DNA of 64,000 nucleotides, from positions 744,001 to 808,000 of the forward strand of contig JAHBTQ010000001.1 of NCBI GenBank assembly GCA_019638495.1. The letters run 5' to 3'. The notes beneath the pieces are model-generated. The model ran no database searches and was not told where the DNA came from. It saw only the letters and a list, made by a program, of their open reading frames with translations. The DNA comes from Taibaiella sp. (lineage in GTDB: Bacteria > Bacteroidota > Bacteroidia > Chitinophagales > Chitinophagaceae). The translations under genes were made by a program, and so were the position numbers. How positions within the stretch are numbered: the stretch's first letter is position 1; each line of letters opens with the position of its first letter. Of this stretch, positions 51,966 through 64,000 are shown one piece after another.

Positions 51966-52053
51966 TGAAATGTGACTATAGGGAATGATAAATTATTATT
52001 AACCCGGTGCGCTTCAGCATCTTTCGGGTTCTGTTCGGCAAGGCGTCATTTGT

Positions 52054-52061
52054 TACCTTTG
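52054..52061 (+). promoter_or_regulatory. TAnnTTTG promoter box before mutL
   Basis: TACCTTTG lies 17 bases before the GTG start at 52079; it makes an upstream ATG start impossible for this transcript. Confidence 0.5.
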
Positions 52062-52078
52062 CACCCAATCAGGATACA

Positions 52079-53920
52079 GTGGCAGACGTAATACAGTTAT
52101 TATCAGAGCATATAGCCAACCAGATAGCGGCAGGAGAGGTGGTGCAACGCCCGGCGTCTGCTGTGAAAGAACTGCTGGAAAATGCAATTGATGCAGGCGC
52201 CACTGAAGTGCAACTGATAATAAAGGACGCAGGAAAAGAACTGATTCAAGTTACGGATAACGGAAAGGGCATGAGCCCCACCGACGCACGTATGAGCTTT
52301 GAGCGCCATGCCACATCCAAGATCAGCAGTATTGAAGACCTGTTCCGCATTCGCACCATGGGTTTCCGTGGCGAGGCTCTTGCATCCATAGCTGCCGTGG
52401 CCCAGGTGGAAATGAAAACACGGCAGCACACCGCCGAAACCGGCACGCGCATCTGCATAGAAGCCACGGAGGTTAAGCTACAGGAAGCCTGTGCAGTGAA
52501 CCCCGGTACCACCATCATGGTGAAGAACCTCTTTTACAACGTACCCGCGCGTCGCAACTTTCTGAAGAGTAATACCACTGAGCTGCGCAATATCCTGGAT
52601 GAATTCACCCGCGTAGCCCTGGCAAATCCTTCCATCGCATTCAGGTTGTGGAACAATGGTACGGAGCAATATCGCCTGGACAGTGATACGCTAAAGGCGC
52701 GTGTTGTAGGCCTGCTGGGTAACAACTATGAGAAAAACCTTGTACCTGTAGAGCAGGATACAGATGTATTGAAGATAAATGGATTTGTAGGCAAGCCGCA
52801 GGCCGCCACCCGTACCCGTGGCATGCAGTTTTTCTTTATTAATGGCCGCTTCATCCGCAATGCCTATCTCAACCATGCAGTTGTCCAGGCATATGAGGGA
52901 CTTATAGAAAAAGATTCTTTCCCCTTCTATGTGCTCTTTCTGGAGGTAGATCCTGCGCGTGTGGACGTAAACGTGCATCCTACCAAGCAGGAGGTGAAAT
53001 TTGAGGACGACAAGCTAATGTACTCTTACCTGTCGGCCGCAGTAAAGCACTCGCTGGCGCGCTACAACATAGCTCCTTCTTTGGATTTTACGCTGAACGC
53101 AGAGATTCAGCAGATGCCTGCTGTCCGCATGCCGTTTACGCAGCGCGAACAGGAGGAGACCAAAAAGGGATACCTGTTTAATACATTCAGCCAGGGTGGA
53201 CAGGCACATCTCGTGGAGAAAAACGACAGCCTTCGCCACTGGAAAGAACTTTACGAGATAGCGAGCACTCCCGCAGCTTCAAATGTTGCATCTGCGCCTG
53301 AACCGGCCATGCCAGAGCAGGCTACCATCCTTACAGGCTCGCAGAGCGAGGGTAAGGGCAAGGGGAGTATGATGCTGATACAGGGCAGCTTACTCGCCAC
53401 CACTGTGAAGTCAGGGGTTATGCTCATACATTTGCGCCGGGCCCAGGAGCGCATTTGCTATGAGCGCTTGCTGCGTGAGTGGAATAACGAAACGGCGCCC
53501 TCGCAGCGAATTTTATTCCCATCATCTTACGAGTTATCTCCCCAGGATGCAGCATTGCTGGAAGAAGTGATCCCGGACCTGCTGCGTATGGGCTTTGACA
53601 TAAGCCCCTTCGGCAAAAACTCATTTGCAGTTCAGGGGCTTCCTCCGGGTCTGCAAGCCGGCGACGAGAAGAATGTCCTTGACGAAGTAATAGAACAACT
53701 AAAGCACGAATCACCGGACGCAGTGAGTCGACGCAGCGACATGCTGCTGGCTGGTATGGCGCGGCGACTGTCACAAAACATACAAGCTATCTTTCAGCCC
53801 GAAGGACAGGAAGCCCTGGTTGATGAGCTTTTTGCCTGTTCCCAGCCTGAGTTCACTCCGGACGGGAAAAAGACATTTGTAATGCTCAGGAAGGAGGAAC
53901 TTGATGCAATGCTCGGCTAG
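52079..53920 (+). CDS. mutL: DNA mismatch repair protein MutL
   Basis: The product is 613 residues from the GTG at 52079 (VADVIQLLSEHIANQIAAGEVV). The N-terminal GHKL ATPase has all motifs: ENAIDAGATE, DNGKGM, RHATSKI and GFRGEALASI, with HPTKQEVKFED around residue 300. The C-terminal dimerisation domain begins near 430. The usual endonuclease motif DQHxAxxRxxYE reads HLRRAQERICYE here, so the metal-binding Asp, Gln and His are replaced while the end of the motif is kept. The C-terminal FACSQPEFTPDGKKTF is family-like. MutL couples mismatch recognition by MutS to strand cutting. It is divergent from nadC. A longer frame starting at 52007 is not needed. Confidence 0.95.
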   Translation: MADVIQLLSEHIANQIAAGEVVQRPASAVKELLENAIDAGATEVQLIIKDAGKELIQVTDNGKGMSPTDARMSFERHATSKISSIEDLFRIRTMGFRGEALASIAAVAQVEMKTRQHTAETGTRICIEATEVKLQEACAVNPGTTIMVKNLFYNVPARRNFLKSNTTELRNILDEFTRVALANPSIAFRLWNNGTEQYRLDSDTLKARVVGLLGNNYEKNLVPVEQDTDVLKINGFVGKPQAATRTRGMQFFFINGRFIRNAYLNHAVVQAYEGLIEKDSFPFYVLFLEVDPARVDVNVHPTKQEVKFEDDKLMYSYLSAAVKHSLARYNIAPSLDFTLNAEIQQMPAVRMPFTQREQEETKKGYLFNTFSQGGQAHLVEKNDSLRHWKELYEIASTPAASNVASAPEPAMPEQATILTGSQSEGKGKGSMMLIQGSLLATTVKSGVMLIHLRRAQERICYERLLREWNNETAPSQRILFPSSYELSPQDAALLEEVIPDLLRMGFDISPFGKNSFAVQGLPPGLQAGDEKNVLDEVIEQLKHESPDAVSRRSDMLLAGMARRLSQNIQAIFQPEGQEALVDELFACSQPEFTPDGKKTFVMLRKEELDAMLG

Positions 53921-54148: not shown

Positions 54149-57100
54149 ATGCGTTACCTATACGCAATATTATTATTCTTCATTTCTAGTATCACCGCAC
54201 GCGCGGTCACTGCAAATTTTACTGCTGATTATAGCTCTGGTTGCTCACCACTGGTGGTCCATTTCACAAATACCTCCACAGGTGCCACGAGTTACATGTG
54301 GAATCTTGGAAACAGTGTCACCACTACAAGTACAAACGCATCTACCAGTTATCTGACGGTAGGCACTTATACCGTCACGCTCACAGCAACCGGCCCCGGT
54401 GGCTCGGATGTGAAAACGATGGTGATCACGGTATTTCCCAATCCTGTTGTGGCTTTTGCTGCAAGCGACACCACGGTTTGCCCTGGTGCCACAGTTTTTT
54501 TCAGTAACAGTAGCACCAGTGGCGGCACTCCGGGTCCGCTTACATATTTATGGAATTTTGGTGACGGTGGTTCGTCAACATCCGCAACACCCAGCCATGC
54601 ATATGCAGCACCGGGATTCTATAATGTAAGCCTTCTGGTAACAAATGCACAGGGGTGTACCAGGCTACTGACAAAGACGGCCTACATGCAGATTTACAAC
54701 CCACCCGTAGCGAATTTCTATGGCAGCCCGTTGAACATTTGTACGCCTCCGGGTTCGGTCACATTTACAAATACCTCAATGGGGCCGTTGCCCATGTCCT
54801 ACACCTGGAGTTTCGGCACTGGCTCGCCCAGTACGGCGTACTCGCCCTCTGTGACCTATGCTACACCTGGCGTGTACACGGTTAAGTTGTCTGTGACAGA
54901 TGGATTCGGTTGCAAAGACAGTATCACAAGGCCAGCCTATATTTTTGTAAGTTCGCTGGTTCCGTCATTTACTGGTCCGGCAAGCGCTTGCGAGCACGCC
55001 GCGCTGAGTTTCGCTAACACCAGTAGCCCGCATGCTACGCGAGTATGGGATTATGGGGACGGTAGTGCTTCCGACACTGCTTACAACGGCAGTCATTCAT
55101 ACATTCTGGCAGGCACATATGTCGTCTCCCTAACTATTCATAACGGACCTTGCTCGGCGGTTGTTACGCATACAGTCACGGTAACACCACCACCCACAGG
55201 CACATTCGATATCTCTCCATCGTTCCCCTGTCCGCCTCCCGTTACGCTCACGTACACATCTACAGCGCCTCCGGGTACTTCGATAACATGGCTATACGAA
55301 GGTGGCGCAACGGGTACAGGTACCATTGGTACGCATGCATATACATGGGATGGAATAAAGGTGGTGAAGATGGTGGTGACTGATGCAGCCGGTTGCGCAG
55401 ATACCGTGGCTCGTGTTGATACCATTTATGACCTGCATTTTGATGCCTCCGCTGACCCCAATGAAGGTTGCGCACCGCTTAATGTTGTCTTTTCAACATT
55501 CCTCACGAGCAGGTGGCCGGATACAACCGCATCTCCACAACCATATCCCTTTCCTATCAGTGCATGTTCCTGGGATTTTGGCGACGGCTCCGGACCGGGT
55601 TCGGGACCAACACCAAGTCATACTTACACAGCCGCCGGCGTGTATGTAGCAACAGTAACTGCCACTACAGCAAACGGATGCACAATAGCAGATACCGTTT
55701 TGGTTCGCGTTGGTACGCCGCCTGTTGTGACCTTTAGTGTCACGGCAACACATGTGTGTTATGGCGGAACGGTTACATTTGTAGCAACCGTGATATCCGG
55801 CCCCGTCACAAAATTTGAATGGGCTACAGGTGATGGTTTGTATGCAACTTCCACAGGTACTTTCACGCATACTTACACAATGCCGGGTACATTTGTCGCT
55901 ACCCTCACACCCTATTATAATGGTTGTCCAGGTGCACCTGTCACAGTGGGGACCGCAGTCGTCATTGACTCCCCCAAGGCGATCATAGGCTTCGACTTCA
56001 TGTGCTCGCCGGAAACGGGCATCCAATTTTACGATCGCTCGCTTGGTGCCAATAGTCGGCTATGGATGTTTGGTGACGGCAGTACCTCTACTGCGCCCAA
56101 TCCCATGCATGTCTATTCCGCTTTAGGCACATATACGGTCACGCTCGCCACTCACAATGTTGCCAGCGGCTGCCGGGATACGGCTGTGGCAGTGATACAT
56201 GTCGCCAATGTCCCGATCGATTTCGGGGCCACGGACACGACAATATGTAGGCTTGATACGGTCCGGTTTTCGGCTATTTACCCGGCCGGGGCCAAACCCG
56301 ACACTTTGCAGTGGTACGTAAATGGGGTCACGAAGCCGTGGTGGAATGATACCGCAATGACGGACACATTTATTACCGGCGGATTCTATACTGTAATGCT
56401 GGCTATAGTTAACAACCGAAACTGCAGAGACACCGTCATAAAAACCAATTACGTATCGGTTGGTGACCCTGATGCGCATTTTGCGGTAGGGCCGGTTTCC
56501 GGCTGCGCTGCGCTGCTGGCAACATTTACAGACTCCAGCACCGACGTACCGGGTATTCCAATACCCACACATCTCTGGGATTTTGGTGACGGCAGCCCCC
56601 CCGTCATTGCGGCCTCGCCTGCCACCCACACCTATACTGCGGCGGGCACCTATCCCGTAAAGCTGTTTGTAACCGATGCTAATGGATGCGTAGATTCGGC
56701 GGGCCCCACCGTTGTCACCGCATTCCGTCCCGCGGCAAGTTTCACAGCTTCTAATACGCATCCGTGTATCAACTCGATCGTCAATTTTAGCAACACCTCT
56801 ACCAGCTATGCTACCAGTTTCTGGACATTTGGCGACGGCACCACTTCTACCGGCACCACACCTACGCATACTTACTCGGATACCGGCACCTACACCGTAA
56901 GGTTGGTAGTTACGGATAGTCACGGCTGCAGCGATACGCTTACAAGGACGGCTTATATTAACGTAACAAAGCCACATGCTGCGTTTACCATGAGCGATAC
57001 GTTTTCTGTGTGCCCGCCAGTGCTCGTCACGTTCACAAATGCAAGCACCGGCGCCACATCGTATAACTGGACATTCGGCGATGGGAATACTTCAGTTTTA

Positions 57101-58699
57101 GTATCGCCGGTAAACCTGTACAACACCCCTGGCGCCTATCCCGTAACCCTGATAGCTACGAATACCTGGGGATGTAAGGATACTGCCAATAGCCATCTCA
57201 CGCTTTTCGGATACGCAGGTGCACTGTCTTACGATCCGCTCCACGGCTGCGCACCACACCTGGTTCATTTTACCGCTGCAATCAGCAATGTGCCTACCAT
57301 TATCTGGGACTTCGGCGACGGCAGCACCAGCCTTATGTCAATGGTAGATACTGCGTCCCATCTGTATACCCAGCCGGGAACGTATCTCCCTAAGCTGATA
57401 CTCAGCGATTTCACCGGGTGTCAGAACTCCGTAGTAGGGCCATTCACTATTAAAGTAGATGAGCTTAAGGCTAAGATCGATGTGTTCCCCGCCGCATGTA
57501 TTGGCTCTCCTTTCAATTTAGTGGATTCTACGTCCTGGTATTTCAACGCGCCCGTGTCATGGTATTGGCGTTTCGGCAGCGACACCAGCACCCTGGCTTC
57601 TCCTGTTCACCCGGCAGTAAATTCCCTTGGTACGGTGCCGGTGACGCTCGTGGTCACGAATGCATGGGGTTGCATGGATAGTGTTACCCAGGATATATCG
57701 ATAAGACCGCTTCCAACTGTCACCGCAAGTGGCGATACCGTGGTCTGTGTCACAGATGCGGCTACGCTATTCGGTTATGGGGCCAGCACCTATACCTGGA
57801 GCGGGCCTACAGGCACCCTGGCCTGCACTGAATGCAACCCCGCAAATGCGACGCCGGTAGTGCCTTCCACCTACACGGTCATTGGTACAGATGAGTTCGG
57901 ATGCAAGGATACGACTACTGTAGATGTGGGCTTGCGAACGCACACATTTGCCGCCACTTCCGGCGATACAGCTATATGTAACGGTATGGAGGTGCCTATT
58001 CTGGATACGGGAGGCACAAAGTATCTATGGTTGCCACCGGGTGGTCTTAGCAGCAATACAGTCGGAAACCCTGGTGCGTCTCCCGGCACAACTGTGACCT
58101 ATACGGTGGTCGCTCAGATCGGTAGCTGCATTCCGGATACGGATTATGTGAAGATTACGGTTTACCCTAAACCTACTGTTAATGCCGGCCCCGACCAGGA
58201 AGCCCTTGCGGGAACTGCTGTTCAGCTGGAAGCTACAGGCACCAATATCGCTTCCTTTAGCTGGAGCCCCGCAAAGTATCTTGACTGCTTTGACTGCGCC
58301 GCTCCGGAAGCCATTGTTGATGTAGATACCCGTTTCGTGGTTACTGTGTATAGCAAATTCGGTTGCAAGGCGTCAGATACCGTGGCTTTGTATTTATACT
58401 GCAACGGACGCCAGCTATTCCACCCCAATGTGTTTACGCCAAATGGAGACGGGCAAAATGATGTGTTCTATCCGCGCGGTTCAGGTATCAATATCGTTAA
58501 GTCTTTCCGCATTTATAACCGATGGGGCGAGCTACTTCACGAACGTAATGACTTCCAGATCAACGACATAAACAGTGCATGGGACGGTATGTACCAGGGC
58601 GAGAAATGCCGGCCGGATGTGTATGTTTACGTCACGGAGGCGGTTTGTTCTACCGGTAAGCCTATTCTCGTAAAGGGGGATGTAACATTGATCCGGTAA
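54149..58699 (+). CDS. Giant surface protein with PKD-type repeats and gliding-type T9SS tail (first copy)
   Basis: The 1516-residue protein has a signal peptide (MRYLYAILLFFISSITARA), about 14 PKD-like units of roughly 85 residues (residues 20-1190; typical cores YLWNFGDGGSST and HLWDFGDGSPP), three further Ig-like domains (about 1190-1420, each with a closely spaced Cys pair such as CTEC or CFDC), and a C-terminal sorting domain from about 1424 (FTPNGDGQNDVFYPRG ... NRWGELL). The tail is the gliding-motility-associated type B, so it should leave by T9SS and act as a long surface adhesin. Units 5 and 9 lack the GDG core. A near-consensus box (TATCTTTA, 54112-54119) precedes it. Confidence 0.93.
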   Translation: MRYLYAILLFFISSITARAVTANFTADYSSGCSPLVVHFTNTSTGATSYMWNLGNSVTTTSTNASTSYLTVGTYTVTLTATGPGGSDVKTMVITVFPNPVVAFAASDTTVCPGATVFFSNSSTSGGTPGPLTYLWNFGDGGSSTSATPSHAYAAPGFYNVSLLVTNAQGCTRLLTKTAYMQIYNPPVANFYGSPLNICTPPGSVTFTNTSMGPLPMSYTWSFGTGSPSTAYSPSVTYATPGVYTVKLSVTDGFGCKDSITRPAYIFVSSLVPSFTGPASACEHAALSFANTSSPHATRVWDYGDGSASDTAYNGSHSYILAGTYVVSLTIHNGPCSAVVTHTVTVTPPPTGTFDISPSFPCPPPVTLTYTSTAPPGTSITWLYEGGATGTGTIGTHAYTWDGIKVVKMVVTDAAGCADTVARVDTIYDLHFDASADPNEGCAPLNVVFSTFLTSRWPDTTASPQPYPFPISACSWDFGDGSGPGSGPTPSHTYTAAGVYVATVTATTANGCTIADTVLVRVGTPPVVTFSVTATHVCYGGTVTFVATVISGPVTKFEWATGDGLYATSTGTFTHTYTMPGTFVATLTPYYNGCPGAPVTVGTAVVIDSPKAIIGFDFMCSPETGIQFYDRSLGANSRLWMFGDGSTSTAPNPMHVYSALGTYTVTLATHNVASGCRDTAVAVIHVANVPIDFGATDTTICRLDTVRFSAIYPAGAKPDTLQWYVNGVTKPWWNDTAMTDTFITGGFYTVMLAIVNNRNCRDTVIKTNYVSVGDPDAHFAVGPVSGCAALLATFTDSSTDVPGIPIPTHLWDFGDGSPPVIAASPATHTYTAAGTYPVKLFVTDANGCVDSAGPTVVTAFRPAASFTASNTHPCINSIVNFSNTSTSYATSFWTFGDGTTSTGTTPTHTYSDTGTYTVRLVVTDSHGCSDTLTRTAYINVTKPHAAFTMSDTFSVCPPVLVTFTNASTGATSYNWTFGDGNTSVLVSPVNLYNTPGAYPVTLIATNTWGCKDTANSHLTLFGYAGALSYDPLHGCAPHLVHFTAAISNVPTIIWDFGDGSTSLMSMVDTASHLYTQPGTYLPKLILSDFTGCQNSVVGPFTIKVDELKAKIDVFPAACIGSPFNLVDSTSWYFNAPVSWYWRFGSDTSTLASPVHPAVNSLGTVPVTLVVTNAWGCMDSVTQDISIRPLPTVTASGDTVVCVTDAATLFGYGASTYTWSGPTGTLACTECNPANATPVVPSTYTVIGTDEFGCKDTTTVDVGLRTHTFAATSGDTAICNGMEVPILDTGGTKYLWLPPGGLSSNTVGNPGASPGTTVTYTVVAQIGSCIPDTDYVKITVYPKPTVNAGPDQEALAGTAVQLEATGTNIASFSWSPAKYLDCFDCAAPEAIVDVDTRFVVTVYSKFGCKASDTVALYLYCNGRQLFHPNVFTPNGDGQNDVFYPRGSGINIVKSFRIYNRWGELLHERNDFQINDINSAWDGMYQGEKCRPDVYVYVTEAVCSTGKPILVKGDVTLIR

Positions 58700-58829
58700 A
58701 AACAACGCTCAAAATATCTTGGAAACACACTTCCCAACCCAACGTTATTCACACACTATGCGTCTTTTAACAAAAGATTATTTATCATTAGGGCATCTCA
58801 TGCCCATTTGAAAAGAGATAAATTTTAAT

Positions 58830-61800
58830 ATGAAGCATTTCAAACTGCTGCTTGCGTTCCTGTCCGTATTGTTAACGGGTACTACAGCACATGCACTTAC
58901 CGCTGGTTTCACAGCCAGCCCCGCTTCAGGCTGCGCACCCTTGCTGGTAAGCTTCACAAATACTACGTCACCCTCTACCGGCACCAGCTACGTCTGGTCG
59001 TTTGGCCCATCCAGCTCGTCAACGCTTACAAATCCATCTACCAGCTTCACCACACCCGGCACACACGTAGTTACGCTTACAGCAACAAATGGCGCATCTG
59101 TAAGTACTTATACACTTTCCGTCACCGTATACCCCAATCCTGTGGTAAGCTTCACGGCCGATGACACTTCGGTCTGCCCATGTACTCCCATTCATTTCAC
59201 TAGTACATCCACGGGTGGGGTGCCCGGGCCAATGACCTATTCCTGGAACTGGGGAGACGGATCGCCAACAAGTTCCGGTGCTACCCCTACGCATACATAT
59301 TGTACTCCGGGAGATTATTCGGTAACGCTTTTTGTCACCAATGCATCGGGCTGTGTTGCCTCCCTCGTCAGGACAAATTATATTCATATCTATAATCCGC
59401 CTATCGCCAACTTTACCTGGGCGCCATTTGCTATCTGCAATCCGCCGGGAACGGTCAATTTTACCAGCACCAGTACAGGTGCGGGCCCACTTACATATGC
59501 CTGGAATTTCGATCCCGGCACTGGTACGGGTGCTACCCCAACCGCTACCTATGCGACAGTTGGCACCCACAATCCTTCCCTTATTGTTACAGACGCCAAT
59601 GGCTGCAAGGATACCGTAACGCTCGGCCCGGTAATTGTTGACACCATCCGGGCAGAATTTACTTATACTTCTACGGTTTGTCTGTATTCTTATGTAACAT
59701 TTACAAACACCAGTTCACCACACGTAACGCGCACCTGGAACTATGGTGATGGTAGCCCCACCACTACGGGGGTAAATGGTGGCCATGCATATTCCAGCCC
59801 CGGAACTTACACTGTAACGCTCACGATCAGTAATCCGCCTTGCACTAAAACAGTTACCCACGTTATCAACGTCGTTACCGGGCCGGCAGCAACCTTTACG
59901 TCGTCTCCGGCACAGCCGTGCCCGGCACCGGTATCAATAACATATACTGCTACAGGTCCGGCGGGTACGCTCTATAATTGGGTTTTCGAGACGGGTGCAG
60001 GTACCGGAAATCCCGTTTCACATACCTACTCATCAAACGGTGTGAAAACTGTAAAGATGATCACGATCGACCCGGTGACAGGGTGCCGCGATACCGTCAC
60101 TAATACTACGGTCATTTATAACCTCTTATTTGATGTACATGCAACGCCGGATGCCGGGTGCAAGCCGCTTACTGTTGGCTTTTCTACCGTTGCTACTACT
60201 TCTGTACCCGGCCCGGGCTCGTCGCCTTACCCATATGGATTCAGCTCTTATACCTGGACATGGGGAGATGGCACCCCCGGTGGCACGGGCCCCACACCCT
60301 CACATACATACACCGAGGTGGGTAGCTACTGGGCCGTATGTGACGCCGTCACGTCAAATGGTTGTCCCGTTAGAGATTCGGTCCTGATTCTCGTAGGTGC
60401 GCCGCCCGTGGTTACATTCAGCGCTACACCTACTCATTTATGCTATGGCGATACCACCGTTACTTTCTATCCTACTATTGTAACCGGACCCGTAGACCAC
60501 TGGGTATGGTACTTTGGTGACGACGGAACTACGATAGACGACACCAGCGCGCATCCGGTAACACACAACTACACCATCCCTGGCATTTTCACCGTTACAG
60601 TTACGCCTTACTATCATGGTTGCCCGGGCGTACCCTTTGTCCGCACCAATTATATCACGGTTGATTCGCCAAAGGCTATGATTGACATTCGCCCCATTTG
60701 CGTTCCGCGAACGAGTGTTCAATTCGGCGATAGCTCTTTGGGAGATGATACACACCTTTGGATGTTTGGCGATGGGTTCACATCAACGGTGGACAACCCT
60801 TTACACAACTATCCGGCTATCGGAGTTTATACCGTCACGCTTGCCACGTATAATGCCGCCAGTGGTTGCCGAGACACCACCTCGGCTGTTATTGATCTTA
60901 CACCTCCTGTCTTCGATATACATGTAGACGACAGTACGGTCTGCAAATATGATTCCGTCACCATCTGGCCTACATTCTCCGTAGGGGGTGCAATGGAATA
61001 TGGTTGGAGTATCTGGAATCCTTACCCGGGCACCTATGCCGGCCCGCTGGTCGGGTCGACAGCTACGCCTATTTCTGGAATGAGATTTGTAGCAACAACA
61101 GGCCAACATACGGTTCGCCTGATAATAAGAGACTACCTGGGATGTTATGACTCGGTCGTACGAATAAATCTCATCACGGTAGGTAAACCTGTTCCGGCAT
61201 TCACAGCACTTCCGGTTTCGGGCTGTGTCCCGCTTGCGGTGATTTTCTCGGATGCAAGTACTCCGGCCGCCGGAACCTCGCTCGCCTCATACGAATGGAC
61301 TTTCGGTGATGGCGGAACATCAACTGTTACCACCCCTATGACGTCACACACCTACACTGCTGCGGGCACGTATGACATAACAGAGATCGTCACAGATAAT
61401 ATCGGATGTAAGGATACCGCCTACCACCCCGCATATATTACCGCCTGGGACCCTACGGCTTCCTTTACTGCTAGCAATACACACCCATGCCTCAATGGTC
61501 CTGTTTCGTTCACCAGCACGTCTACGGGTGGCATTGTTGCCTATAGCTGGGACTTTGGCGATGGAGTTACCTCCACATTGGCTACACCATCTCATAGCTA
61601 CACTGCAGCAGGTACCTACAACGTTACACTTATGGTCACCGACTCGCATGGATGCACAGATGCAGTCATGATGTCTTCATTGATTACTGTGGCAGACCCG
61701 GTTGCTGCCTTCCATATGAGCGACTCGGTGTCGGTCTGCCCACCACTTTTTGTCAACTTTATAAATACCAGTTCGGGTGCCATTTCATATGAGTGGGACC

Positions 61801-63422
61801 TGGGAGGGGTAGGCACATCGCTGGTGGCTTCGCCGAGCAACATGTTTATCTCCTCGGGCTTCTATCCCATCCGCCTTATCGCGACAAATACGTACGGTTG
61901 CAAGGACACCGTAATTCATCCGGTCAACATCTTCGGTTATGCGGGCGCATTTACCTACGGTCCCTTGCAAGGTTGCGCTCCGTTTTCTGTTACGTTCAAT
62001 GCTGCCCTCAGCAACGTACCTGACATAGTCTGGGACTTCTCCGACGGTGTTACATACAGCACTGCTTTTGAGGACACGATCGTCCACGTCTATACAACAC
62101 CGGGGGCATATGTGCCAAAGCTATTACTTACAGATAATACAGGATGCCAGACGTCAAGCACAGGTCTCGACACTATTAAGGTAGAGGCGATCTATCCTAA
62201 AATGTCAACCGACCCCAATCCGGTATGTATCGGCATTCCGTTTACAATGATAGATTCGTCCACCGCATACTGGTCGGCACCCAACGAATGGGAGTGGACA
62301 TACGATGGCAACACGAGCACGCTGCAGTCGCCCACATATACCATTACCACACCGGGTACATATCCTATTACGCTCAAGGTGAAGAATGCCTGGGGCTGCG
62401 AGGCCACGCTTACCACTAATATGGTCATTAACCCTCCGCCGGATGTTACTGCCAGCCCTGATACGGTTGTGTGTCTCACCGATCCTGCCACGCTCACAGG
62501 CTATGGAGCTGTTTCCTATACCTGGGCCGGCGCAGGAACGCTGAGTTGCACCACCTGCAACCCCGTACTTGCTACACCTACAGATGTAACAACGTACACC
62601 GTAGTAGGTACAGATGCCAGTGGTTGTGTGGATTCCGCTACCGTGACAGTTGGGCTCAGAACGCATACTATCAGCAGAGCCTGGGGCGACACAGCAGTGT
62701 GCCAGGGCGTATCTGTGCAGTTATTTGACACCGGTGGCACCACTTACCTGTGGCTACCCCCGCTGGGTCTAAATGACAATACGGTGTTCAATCCTATCGC
62801 TACACCACCATACACTACCATTTACACGGTAATAGCAAGGTTGGGTAGTTGCATACCGGACACTAACCAGGTCACACTTACCATCTGGCCGCTGCCATCT
62901 ATTTATGCCGGGCCTGACCAGAAAGTACTGGCAGGAAGCACGGCCCAGTTACAAGCTACTGGCAAGGACATTGCGAAACTGACGTGGTGGCCGGGAGAAA
63001 CACTTAGTTGCACGGATTGCTTCAATCCGGTTGCGAGTATGACGGTCAACACTACATATACCGCCGACGCTGTTTCCGACAGAGGTTGCAAGGCCTCAGA
63101 CTCGGTCAAGATCCTGCTATATTGCGACAACAGCATGGTATTTATCCCTAATGCCTTTACGCCTAATGGCGACGGGCAGAATGATGTATTCTATCCGCGT
63201 GGTGCAGGACTGAAGGTGATCAAAACATTCCGTGTGTATAACCGATGGGGAGAATTGATCTATTCGCAGGAGGGCATACAACTGAATGATGCCAGCGTAG
63301 GTTGGGATGGGTCATACAAAGGTTCAGAACCCCGACCGGACGTCTATGTCTACATCATGGAGGCAGTATGCTTCACAGGAGAGGACGTCAACATTAAAGG
63401 GGACGTGACGATATTGAAATAG
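58830..63422 (+). CDS. Giant surface protein with PKD-type repeats and gliding-type T9SS tail (second copy)
   Basis: The 1530-residue protein is a full-length paralogue of the preceding one: signal peptide, about 14 PKD-like units in the same order, three Ig-like domains with Cys pairs (CTTC, CTDC), and the same type B tail from about residue 1438 (FTPNGDGQNDVFYPRGAG ... NRWGELI). Degenerate units 5 and 9 are in the same places as in the first copy. The 130-base spacer shows no terminator; the two genes may be co-transcribed. It ends before an intrinsic terminator at 63445-63471. Ligand and role unknown. Confidence 0.93.
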   Translation: MKHFKLLLAFLSVLLTGTTAHALTAGFTASPASGCAPLLVSFTNTTSPSTGTSYVWSFGPSSSSTLTNPSTSFTTPGTHVVTLTATNGASVSTYTLSVTVYPNPVVSFTADDTSVCPCTPIHFTSTSTGGVPGPMTYSWNWGDGSPTSSGATPTHTYCTPGDYSVTLFVTNASGCVASLVRTNYIHIYNPPIANFTWAPFAICNPPGTVNFTSTSTGAGPLTYAWNFDPGTGTGATPTATYATVGTHNPSLIVTDANGCKDTVTLGPVIVDTIRAEFTYTSTVCLYSYVTFTNTSSPHVTRTWNYGDGSPTTTGVNGGHAYSSPGTYTVTLTISNPPCTKTVTHVINVVTGPAATFTSSPAQPCPAPVSITYTATGPAGTLYNWVFETGAGTGNPVSHTYSSNGVKTVKMITIDPVTGCRDTVTNTTVIYNLLFDVHATPDAGCKPLTVGFSTVATTSVPGPGSSPYPYGFSSYTWTWGDGTPGGTGPTPSHTYTEVGSYWAVCDAVTSNGCPVRDSVLILVGAPPVVTFSATPTHLCYGDTTVTFYPTIVTGPVDHWVWYFGDDGTTIDDTSAHPVTHNYTIPGIFTVTVTPYYHGCPGVPFVRTNYITVDSPKAMIDIRPICVPRTSVQFGDSSLGDDTHLWMFGDGFTSTVDNPLHNYPAIGVYTVTLATYNAASGCRDTTSAVIDLTPPVFDIHVDDSTVCKYDSVTIWPTFSVGGAMEYGWSIWNPYPGTYAGPLVGSTATPISGMRFVATTGQHTVRLIIRDYLGCYDSVVRINLITVGKPVPAFTALPVSGCVPLAVIFSDASTPAAGTSLASYEWTFGDGGTSTVTTPMTSHTYTAAGTYDITEIVTDNIGCKDTAYHPAYITAWDPTASFTASNTHPCLNGPVSFTSTSTGGIVAYSWDFGDGVTSTLATPSHSYTAAGTYNVTLMVTDSHGCTDAVMMSSLITVADPVAAFHMSDSVSVCPPLFVNFINTSSGAISYEWDLGGVGTSLVASPSNMFISSGFYPIRLIATNTYGCKDTVIHPVNIFGYAGAFTYGPLQGCAPFSVTFNAALSNVPDIVWDFSDGVTYSTAFEDTIVHVYTTPGAYVPKLLLTDNTGCQTSSTGLDTIKVEAIYPKMSTDPNPVCIGIPFTMIDSSTAYWSAPNEWEWTYDGNTSTLQSPTYTITTPGTYPITLKVKNAWGCEATLTTNMVINPPPDVTASPDTVVCLTDPATLTGYGAVSYTWAGAGTLSCTTCNPVLATPTDVTTYTVVGTDASGCVDSATVTVGLRTHTISRAWGDTAVCQGVSVQLFDTGGTTYLWLPPLGLNDNTVFNPIATPPYTTIYTVIARLGSCIPDTNQVTLTIWPLPSIYAGPDQKVLAGSTAQLQATGKDIAKLTWWPGETLSCTDCFNPVASMTVNTTYTADAVSDRGCKASDSVKILLYCDNSMVFIPNAFTPNGDGQNDVFYPRGAGLKVIKTFRVYNRWGELIYSQEGIQLNDASVGWDGSYKGSEPRPDVYVYIMEAVCFTGEDVNIKGDVTILK

Positions 63423-63525: not shown

Positions 63526-64000
63526 TTATTGTGCAGTATTCGTGCCATTCATTGTAAACACATACTGCACCAGGTTAGCCCCCATCTGCAATGCAGCCAT
63601 ACGTTTCTCCGGTGCGTCATGGTGAACATCGGGATCCTCCCAGCCATCGCCAAGGTCTGTTTCAAAGCTATAAAAGCATACTACCCTGCCCTTGTATATC
63701 AGACCATATCCCCTTGGCGGTTTTTCGTCATGCTCATGCACTTTGGGCAGGCCGGTGCTGAAGTTGAATTTCTGATGGTAGATAGGGTGGCTGAAAGGAA
63801 GCTCCACAAGCTCCAGTTCAGGAAATATCTTTTTAAGCGCCGGCCGCACATAAGGGTCCAGGCCATAGTTGTCGTCAATATGCAGGAAACCGCCGCTTTC
63901 CAGGTATTTACGCAGATTTTTGGCATCTGCATCGGTCACAGTCCACCGCCCATGGCCGGTCATGTGCACAAAAGGGTAATTAAAAATATCCGGGCTGGCT
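63526..64000 (-). CDS. DUF4159 domain protein (C-terminal part)
   Basis: The gene runs off the right edge; the frame is open from 64000 (reading ASPDIFNYPFVHMTGHG) to the stop at 63526, about 157 residues. It matches DUF4159: PFVHMTGHGRW, LRKYLESGGFLHIDDNYG, LPFSHPIYHQ, and the C-terminal ALQMGANLVQYVF. This is a common Bacteroidota protein family with a glutamine-amidotransferase-like fold; its job is unknown. The GTG at 63969 is internal, since conserved residues come before it. Confidence 0.88.
   Translation of the reverse strand, partial: ASPDIFNYPFVHMTGHGRWTVTDADAKNLRKYLESGGFLHIDDNYGLDPYVRPALKKIFPELELVELPFSHPIYHQKFNFSTGLPKVHEHDEKPPRGYGLIYKGRVVCFYSFETDLGDGWEDPDVHHDAPEKRMAALQMGANLVQYVFTMNGTNTAQ

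Follow-up and report, generated by a model that had tools for sequence, protein, structure and literature searches.

A window of 64,000 nucleotides from the genome of a Taibaiella sp. (assembly GCA_019638495.1, here G000) carries two large adjacent genes, A and B. Coordinates are given for this 64-kb window, the whole stretch of DNA analysed, and the prefix C1: marks those of the contig. Gene A (54149..58699, + strand) encodes a protein of 1516 aa with 14 PKD-type units, three Ig-like units and a C-terminal domain (CTD) of type B for the type IX secretion system (T9SS). Gene B (58830..63422, + strand; 1530 aa) follows after a gap of 130 bp with the same architecture in the same order, and both open reading frames fall exactly where an earlier note on this DNA had placed them. 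The two proteins appear to represent an established type of T9SS surface protein, and the history of their family is unusually regular.

The N-terminus of A resembles a signal peptide (judged by eye). Units 1–14, the PKD-type units, occupy 54206..57706 (+ strand, A residues 20–1186) and are followed by the Ig-like units 15–17 (57707..58402, + strand, residues 1187–1418), of which 15 and 17 have extra Cys residues, and by the type B sorting domain (58403..58696, + strand, residues 1419–1516). The sorting domain of B lies at 63126..63419 (+ strand, B residues 1433–1530). PF18911 covers 12 stretches of A and 11 of B as PKD domains, and PF00801 covers 10 and 7. At the extreme C-terminus, TIGR04131 reaches 44.9 bits in A and 40.9 bits in B (cut-off 35), while PF13585 (CHU_C) reaches 44 and 49.8 against a cut-off of 27.

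Two details of this architecture had been described somewhat differently in the earlier note. Units 5 and 9, which were singled out as degenerate, do depart from the PKD core motif as judged by eye, but units 1, 3 and 14 depart from it as well. Moreover, the Cys pair that was taken as the mark of the three Ig-like domains is not peculiar to them, since each of units 2–17 contains such a pair, shared by no fewer than 35 of the 36 full-length family members. These pairs presumably form disulfides.

In AlphaFold models, units 7–11 are confidently predicted as β-strand domains (pLDDT 92, pTM 0.61); a second model covers units 13 to the CTD (pLDDT 89, pTM 0.44), and the relative placement of the units is uncertain. 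Among solved chains, the best sequence match of A is GhpA of Aureispira (PDB 9flp and related; E 2e-19), which is also the best fold match of units 7–11 (Z 15.9 over 388 residues, rmsd 6.6). Other fold and sequence matches are to single PKD domains of collagenases and other proteins.

Unit order, length and sequence drift

For the comparison of A with B, each protein was cut at its unit starts into 17 units plus the CTD, giving 18 segments. Cognate A–B units share a mean identity of 51%, against 31% for non-cognate A–B units, 30% for units within A and 31% for units within B. By score, the cognate match beats every non-cognate one in 16 of the 17 units. The exception is unit 9 (56204..56461, A residues 686–771; 60900..61181, B residues 691–784; both + strand), where the A–B match has 29% identity and a score of 62, and the best non-cognate match has 34% and 104. 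By identity alone, the cognate match of unit 10 (44%) also comes just under its best match within the protein (46%). Family profiles built from 22 members outside the A and B clades label both proteins 1 to 18 in strict order and put unit 9 in register as well. The unit-by-unit correspondence proposed in the earlier note is thereby borne out; the contrary pattern, in which units are closer to one another within a protein, was found at unit 9 alone and not over a whole protein.

At the DNA level, the longest A–B repeat found measures 136 nt at 74% and falls in the sorting domains; the tandem repeat search, at a score of 40 or more, gave just two copies of a 15-base unit. Because the units lack the near-identical DNA that repeat shuffling needs, their order has remained stable. 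Stability of this kind had been considered unusual for repeat proteins, but units with only about 30% identity in protein and no long stretches of near-identical DNA in common would be expected to show it.

The same order is found throughout the family. The search for relatives gave 72 matches, of which 55 proteins were analysed and 17, being longer paralogs or fragments, were left out (in G001, G002, G007, G014, G015, G016, G017, G022, G023 and G024); the closest named record is from Flavipsychrobacter stenotrophus, at 50% identity, and on that basis the genus appears to be Flavipsychrobacter. Within the genus, the 36 full-length members measure 1504–1541 aa, and not one of them varies in the length of units 16 and 17 or of the sorting domain. 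Strict unit order holds in 38 of 39 short members, truncated ones being in order from their first unit onward, and the sole deviating member (from G004) has its unit 7 labelled as 11. Of 16 longer paralogs with other tails, 15 likewise begin with units 1–14 in the fixed order.

Outside the genus, the order test covered the 21 of 35 proteins that have exactly 18 segments, the 14 with other counts being left out; 20 of the 21 are distinct, as L089 is apparently on the same contig as the protein of G051. In every case, the match of position to profile was above all 5000 shuffles of units 1–14, with z of 9.3 to 10.4 for seven proteins from other genera of the family and 4.6 to 6.6 for the remainder, in other families of the order. 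In this latter group only 5–7 of the 14 units match their own profile best, and the unit profiles, built from the genus, can miss distant relatives. Fixed order is the rule of the 17-unit family and not of all its kin. Expanded unit types were seen in some relatives, namely about 30 unit-3-like copies in L095 (1-11748), about ten unit-15-like copies in L094 (6001-13248) and five in L085 (5995-11889).

Retention of the order over such a distance would be better explained by selection acting on the whole rod. One form that this could take is a length ruler or spacer, where the rod holds a tip or keeps a distance and the fit between neighbours preserves the identity of each unit. The near-constant length of the proteins, the invariant units 16, 17 and CTD, the 14 ordered units shared with longer paralogs of other tails, and the positional identity kept across families all speak for such a role, whereas Pfam and NCBIfam identify no separate tip domain at the N-terminus of either protein. 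A ruler function is possible, if on the unlikely side, and would be compatible with the shared export partner argued for below.

Unit 9 is the least conserved unit of the family (mean identity of 39% among the 36 members) and the most variable in length, with unit 7 next. These properties, along with the low A–B identity at unit 9, could mean that A and B are used as alternatives, as the earlier note also suggested, each having its own binding target and being chosen by regulation, with unit 9 (and 7) as a changing contact surface. The ratio of silent to amino acid changes suggested in the earlier note as a check was unusable for A against B, where silent sites are saturated (pS 0.751, dS infinite), and likewise for A and B against their orthologs in G021; closer family pairs were used instead and did yield values. 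The dN/dS of three close pairs is 0.049, 0.063 and 0.095, and that of a tandem pair in G007 is 0.138. Close family pairs are thus under strong purifying selection. At unit 9, the ratio in three close pairs is 0.12–0.14, which is among the higher units, but far below 1 and with no sign of positive selection, and alternative use of A and B consequently appears improbable.

Age and neighbourhood of the pair

In G000 there are 68 family matches, five of which are full arrays: A, B, a full copy C located 17 kb beyond B (C1:824783-829405) and two longer paralogs of 2458 and 1892 aa, both having their first 14 units in common with A and B. The remaining 63 matches are partial. In a tree of the 55 proteins, A groups with five others and B with nine B/C proteins (support 100 each), and the A and B/C clades were recovered again in a tree of the 39 short rows; both trees are quick searches with no mixture model. 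A tree constrained to unite A and B as one clade, as would follow from a recent duplication of A into B, had a log-likelihood 450 lower (p-AU 1.3e-10) and was rejected. On this phylogeny the A and B lineages split before their species did, and for that reason a recent private duplication is ruled out. The cognate identities, the tree and the order of the profiles support duplication of the whole gene, after which the sequences drifted while the units kept their order. Of the interpretation offered in the earlier note, whole-gene duplication and stable order therefore stand, but the duplication is neither recent and private nor rare.

Neighbouring copies do not visibly homogenise each other, since in all 18 segments the mean A–B identity differs by no more than 3 points between pairs from one genome and pairs from different genomes. 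Gene conversion between neighbours likewise left no sign in the unit means across genomes (single genomes were not tested one by one). Orthologs are closer than A–B pairs in most segments.

The upstream neighbour of A is mutL (52007..53920, + strand), a landmark outside the system that precedes A in five of the six A-clade genomes, G018 being the exception. A B/C-clade gene follows A in five of the six as well; G021, the remaining genome, has a contig end 82 bp downstream of A. This constant company would suit a single heteromeric fibre or bundle, a possibility already raised in the earlier note, with A, B and C as subunits on shared or neighbouring PorP/SprF barrels and a complex that needs all of them. 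A and B are also equal in length and register, and GhpA, the closest solved chain by sequence and fold, is described as forming a heptameric grappling hook (PMC11205867). On the other hand, the GhpA match may reflect PKD strings in general, C is separated from A–B in both G000 and G021, and the nearly complete genomes G003, G012 and G020 have a single match each, such that one paralog suffices there. Obligate assembly of the three is accordingly an unlikely arrangement.

The earlier note had also called for a search for tandem pairs in related genomes, and pairs and triples do recur within the genus and beyond. Tandem copies that group by genome occur in G007 (three in a row), G016 and G011 (two each), with support of 99, 100 and 93–96, and tandem pairs outside the genus were found at L091 and in G056 and G069. 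In G253 (L197 2990-12999), two adjoining array genes each have their own PorP/SprF gene, and passenger and shuttle may have been copied together there. No paper on tandem type B clusters of this kind was found in a literature search that covered titles and the openings of abstracts and took in few subscription papers.

Given how frequent tandem copying is, and how copy number varies, A and B might simply be redundant duplicates retained by chance, with no separate role. Strong purifying selection in close family pairs argues otherwise, as does the finding that, as far as contigs allow, the A-clade genomes have kept A and B/C open after their silent sites became saturated. Redundancy is hence very improbable.

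Sorting domains and the likely PorP/SprF partner

G000 encodes SprA at one locus (TIGR04189, 2458 bits) and PorP/SprF proteins above the TIGR03519 cut-off at ten loci. One of the ten lies behind copy C (C1:829419-830480), and there is none directly downstream of B. Instead, B is followed by a block of other genes, which begins in the window with a DUF4159 gene (63526..63999, - strand) and runs over about 17 kb (C1:807526-824783) to copy C. Because this block separates B from C, A and B are detached from the PorP/SprF gene that stands behind their kin. The block starts with genes for DUF4159, an RNA methyltransferase, an ECF sigma factor and a cytochrome peroxidase, and these first four genes also come after B in the sister genome G021; no mobile element was named among the nine proteins examined in the block. 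In G009, by comparison, mutL, A, B, C and PorP stand unbroken in a row, and a G009 gene about 1.5 kb after PorP matches the G000 gene at C1:833227-834000, about 3 kb after PorP.

Clusters elsewhere in the genus point to the usual arrangement. Of 28 clusters of the 1.5-thousand-residue type that were fetched (39 proteins), two end at contig edges and 26 are readable, and 19 of these 26 have a PorP/SprF gene at most 270 bp behind the last copy. The 19 include L050 and L071, in which the PorP gene abuts the array gene and, in L050, overlaps it by one base. Multi-copy clusters with PorP (in G006, G007, G008, G009, G011 and G018) have one PorP gene, behind the last copy. Outside the genus, a PorP gene comes after 13 of 23 array proteins, as judged with a profile that was built from the genus and can miss distant relatives; the other ten comprise two proteins that are first in tandem pairs, one at a contig end, one in G253 and six of family f8. 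The locus fetched from Flavipsychrobacter stenotrophus RB1R16 holds a single copy with a PorP gene behind it.

Among the longer paralogs, an adjacent PorP gene accompanies all four with type B ends and not one of the 11 readable ones that lack such an end. The type A assignment lies above the cut-off for ten of the eleven and below it for L079; L069, a cut longer paralog, is outside the readable count. The pattern represents few independent events, because all 12 proteins that lack a type B end together make up a single clade. Judging from these tails, array and sorting route have been exchanged among the longer paralogs. The 14-unit block was seen on type A tails, with no PorP/SprF neighbour found, in L010 (1828-9201), L066, L067, L068, L070, L072, L073, L075, L076 and L077.

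The sorting domains themselves are 80% identical between B and C, 57% between A and B and 55% between A and C, and none of 24 further type B CTDs examined exceeds 54% to A, B or C. The PorP/SprF protein behind C shares 66–77% identity with its counterparts in the six relatives that carry A or B/C genes, and no more than 39% with any of the nine remaining PorP/SprF proteins of G000. Published work on such systems (PMC12618676) indicates that type B substrates require PorP/SprF, that one shuttle can serve several of them, with one serving three orphan substrates, and that similar CTDs cross-talk. In the same source, a PorP/SprF-like gene is directly downstream in 9 of 12 cases in Flavobacterium johnsoniae, which makes adjacency usual and not defining. 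SprB, furthermore, is described as being bound by SprF (PMC9143113). The precedent of one shuttle for several orphans would fit A and B, and most firmly B. From CTD identity and the gene order of relatives, A and B most likely share the PorP/SprF gene behind C, about 22 kb away.

A probable shared shuttle and its parallels

Taken together, A and B are probably paralogous surface rods that are exported and anchored via one shared PorP/SprF protein. With copy C and the PorP/SprF gene, both outside the window, taken into account, the likely mechanism becomes one of several passengers with one export partner. After export to the periplasm by Sec, A and B would travel through the SprA pore of the type IX system, directed by the type B signal at their C-termini. 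A PorP/SprF barrel would then collect them and hold them at the outer face, where 17 abutting β-sandwich units, 16 of them with the conserved Cys pair, would make a rod of set length, possibly one that serves in adhesion. The family would have expanded as genes were copied in tandem ahead of a single PorP/SprF gene, giving two or three passengers per shuttle. In the lineage of the window, the cluster mutL-A-B-C-PorP would have been broken as 17 kb came between B and C, leaving A and B as type B orphans dependent in trans on the PorP/SprF behind C.

Several observations weigh against this reading. Seven of the 26 readable clusters have no adjacent PorP/SprF gene, these being the window pair, its counterpart in G021 and copies in G002, G007 (two), G016 and G019. 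The six f8 proteins outside the genus share this fixed architecture, yet the genus-derived profile found no PorP gene beside them. Neither Pfam nor NCBIfam named a binding domain in A or B, and in unit 6, orthologs of A are no closer to one another (55%) than A is to B (55%). Lastly, L159, another type B protein of G000 with its own adjoining PorP gene, has a CTD 51% identical to that of A; since this is nearly as close, the partner of A is less certain than that of B. Further orphan type B array genes are L054 (G016), L057 (G019), L058 and L059 (G007) and L060 (G002).

A far broader conjecture would have set-length, disulfide-stapled 17-unit rods across the order, with unit identity kept by neighbours, tandem paralogs that co-assemble on one type of PorP/SprF to give a mixed fibre at the surface, and unit 9 as the changing contact; it is best regarded as a long shot. 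More immediately, the clusters provide a natural test of shuttle sharing in the T9SS, since a single PorP/SprF gene is accompanied by one, two or three close passengers, and in one lineage two of the passengers have become separated from it. Because the same 14-unit block occurs on type A tails with no PorP neighbour, the presence of a shuttle seems to depend on the sorting tail and not on the cargo. The family also illustrates that a diverged repeat string can hold its order and length across several families.

Three known systems offer themselves for comparison. GhpA resembles A in its strings of PKD and Ig domains and in the protein end, where the end of GhpA matches A residues 1392–1498 (the end of the last Ig-like unit and the CTD). 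GhpA differs in its size, 5898 aa against about 1520, and in an identity of about 17–21% in fold alignments; the likeness of A to a grappling hook is confined to those domain strings and that end. SprB of F. johnsoniae, a T9SS type B surface adhesin served by the PorP/SprF-like shuttle SprF and compared here by description, resembles the putative surface proteins A and B in its large size and type B CTD. The parallel extends to SprA in the genome and to the PorP/SprF-like gene that, in most clusters of the present family, comes immediately after the array genes. SprB is far larger than A or B, and the present family differs further in its 17 units of fixed order, in having several passengers per shuttle gene and in the detachment of A and B. 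The third system is the shared-shuttle case cited above, in which several type B substrates with similar CTDs are served by one shuttle whose gene is located elsewhere; sharing was established there by pull-down, whereas here it is deduced from the gene order of relatives and from CTD identity.

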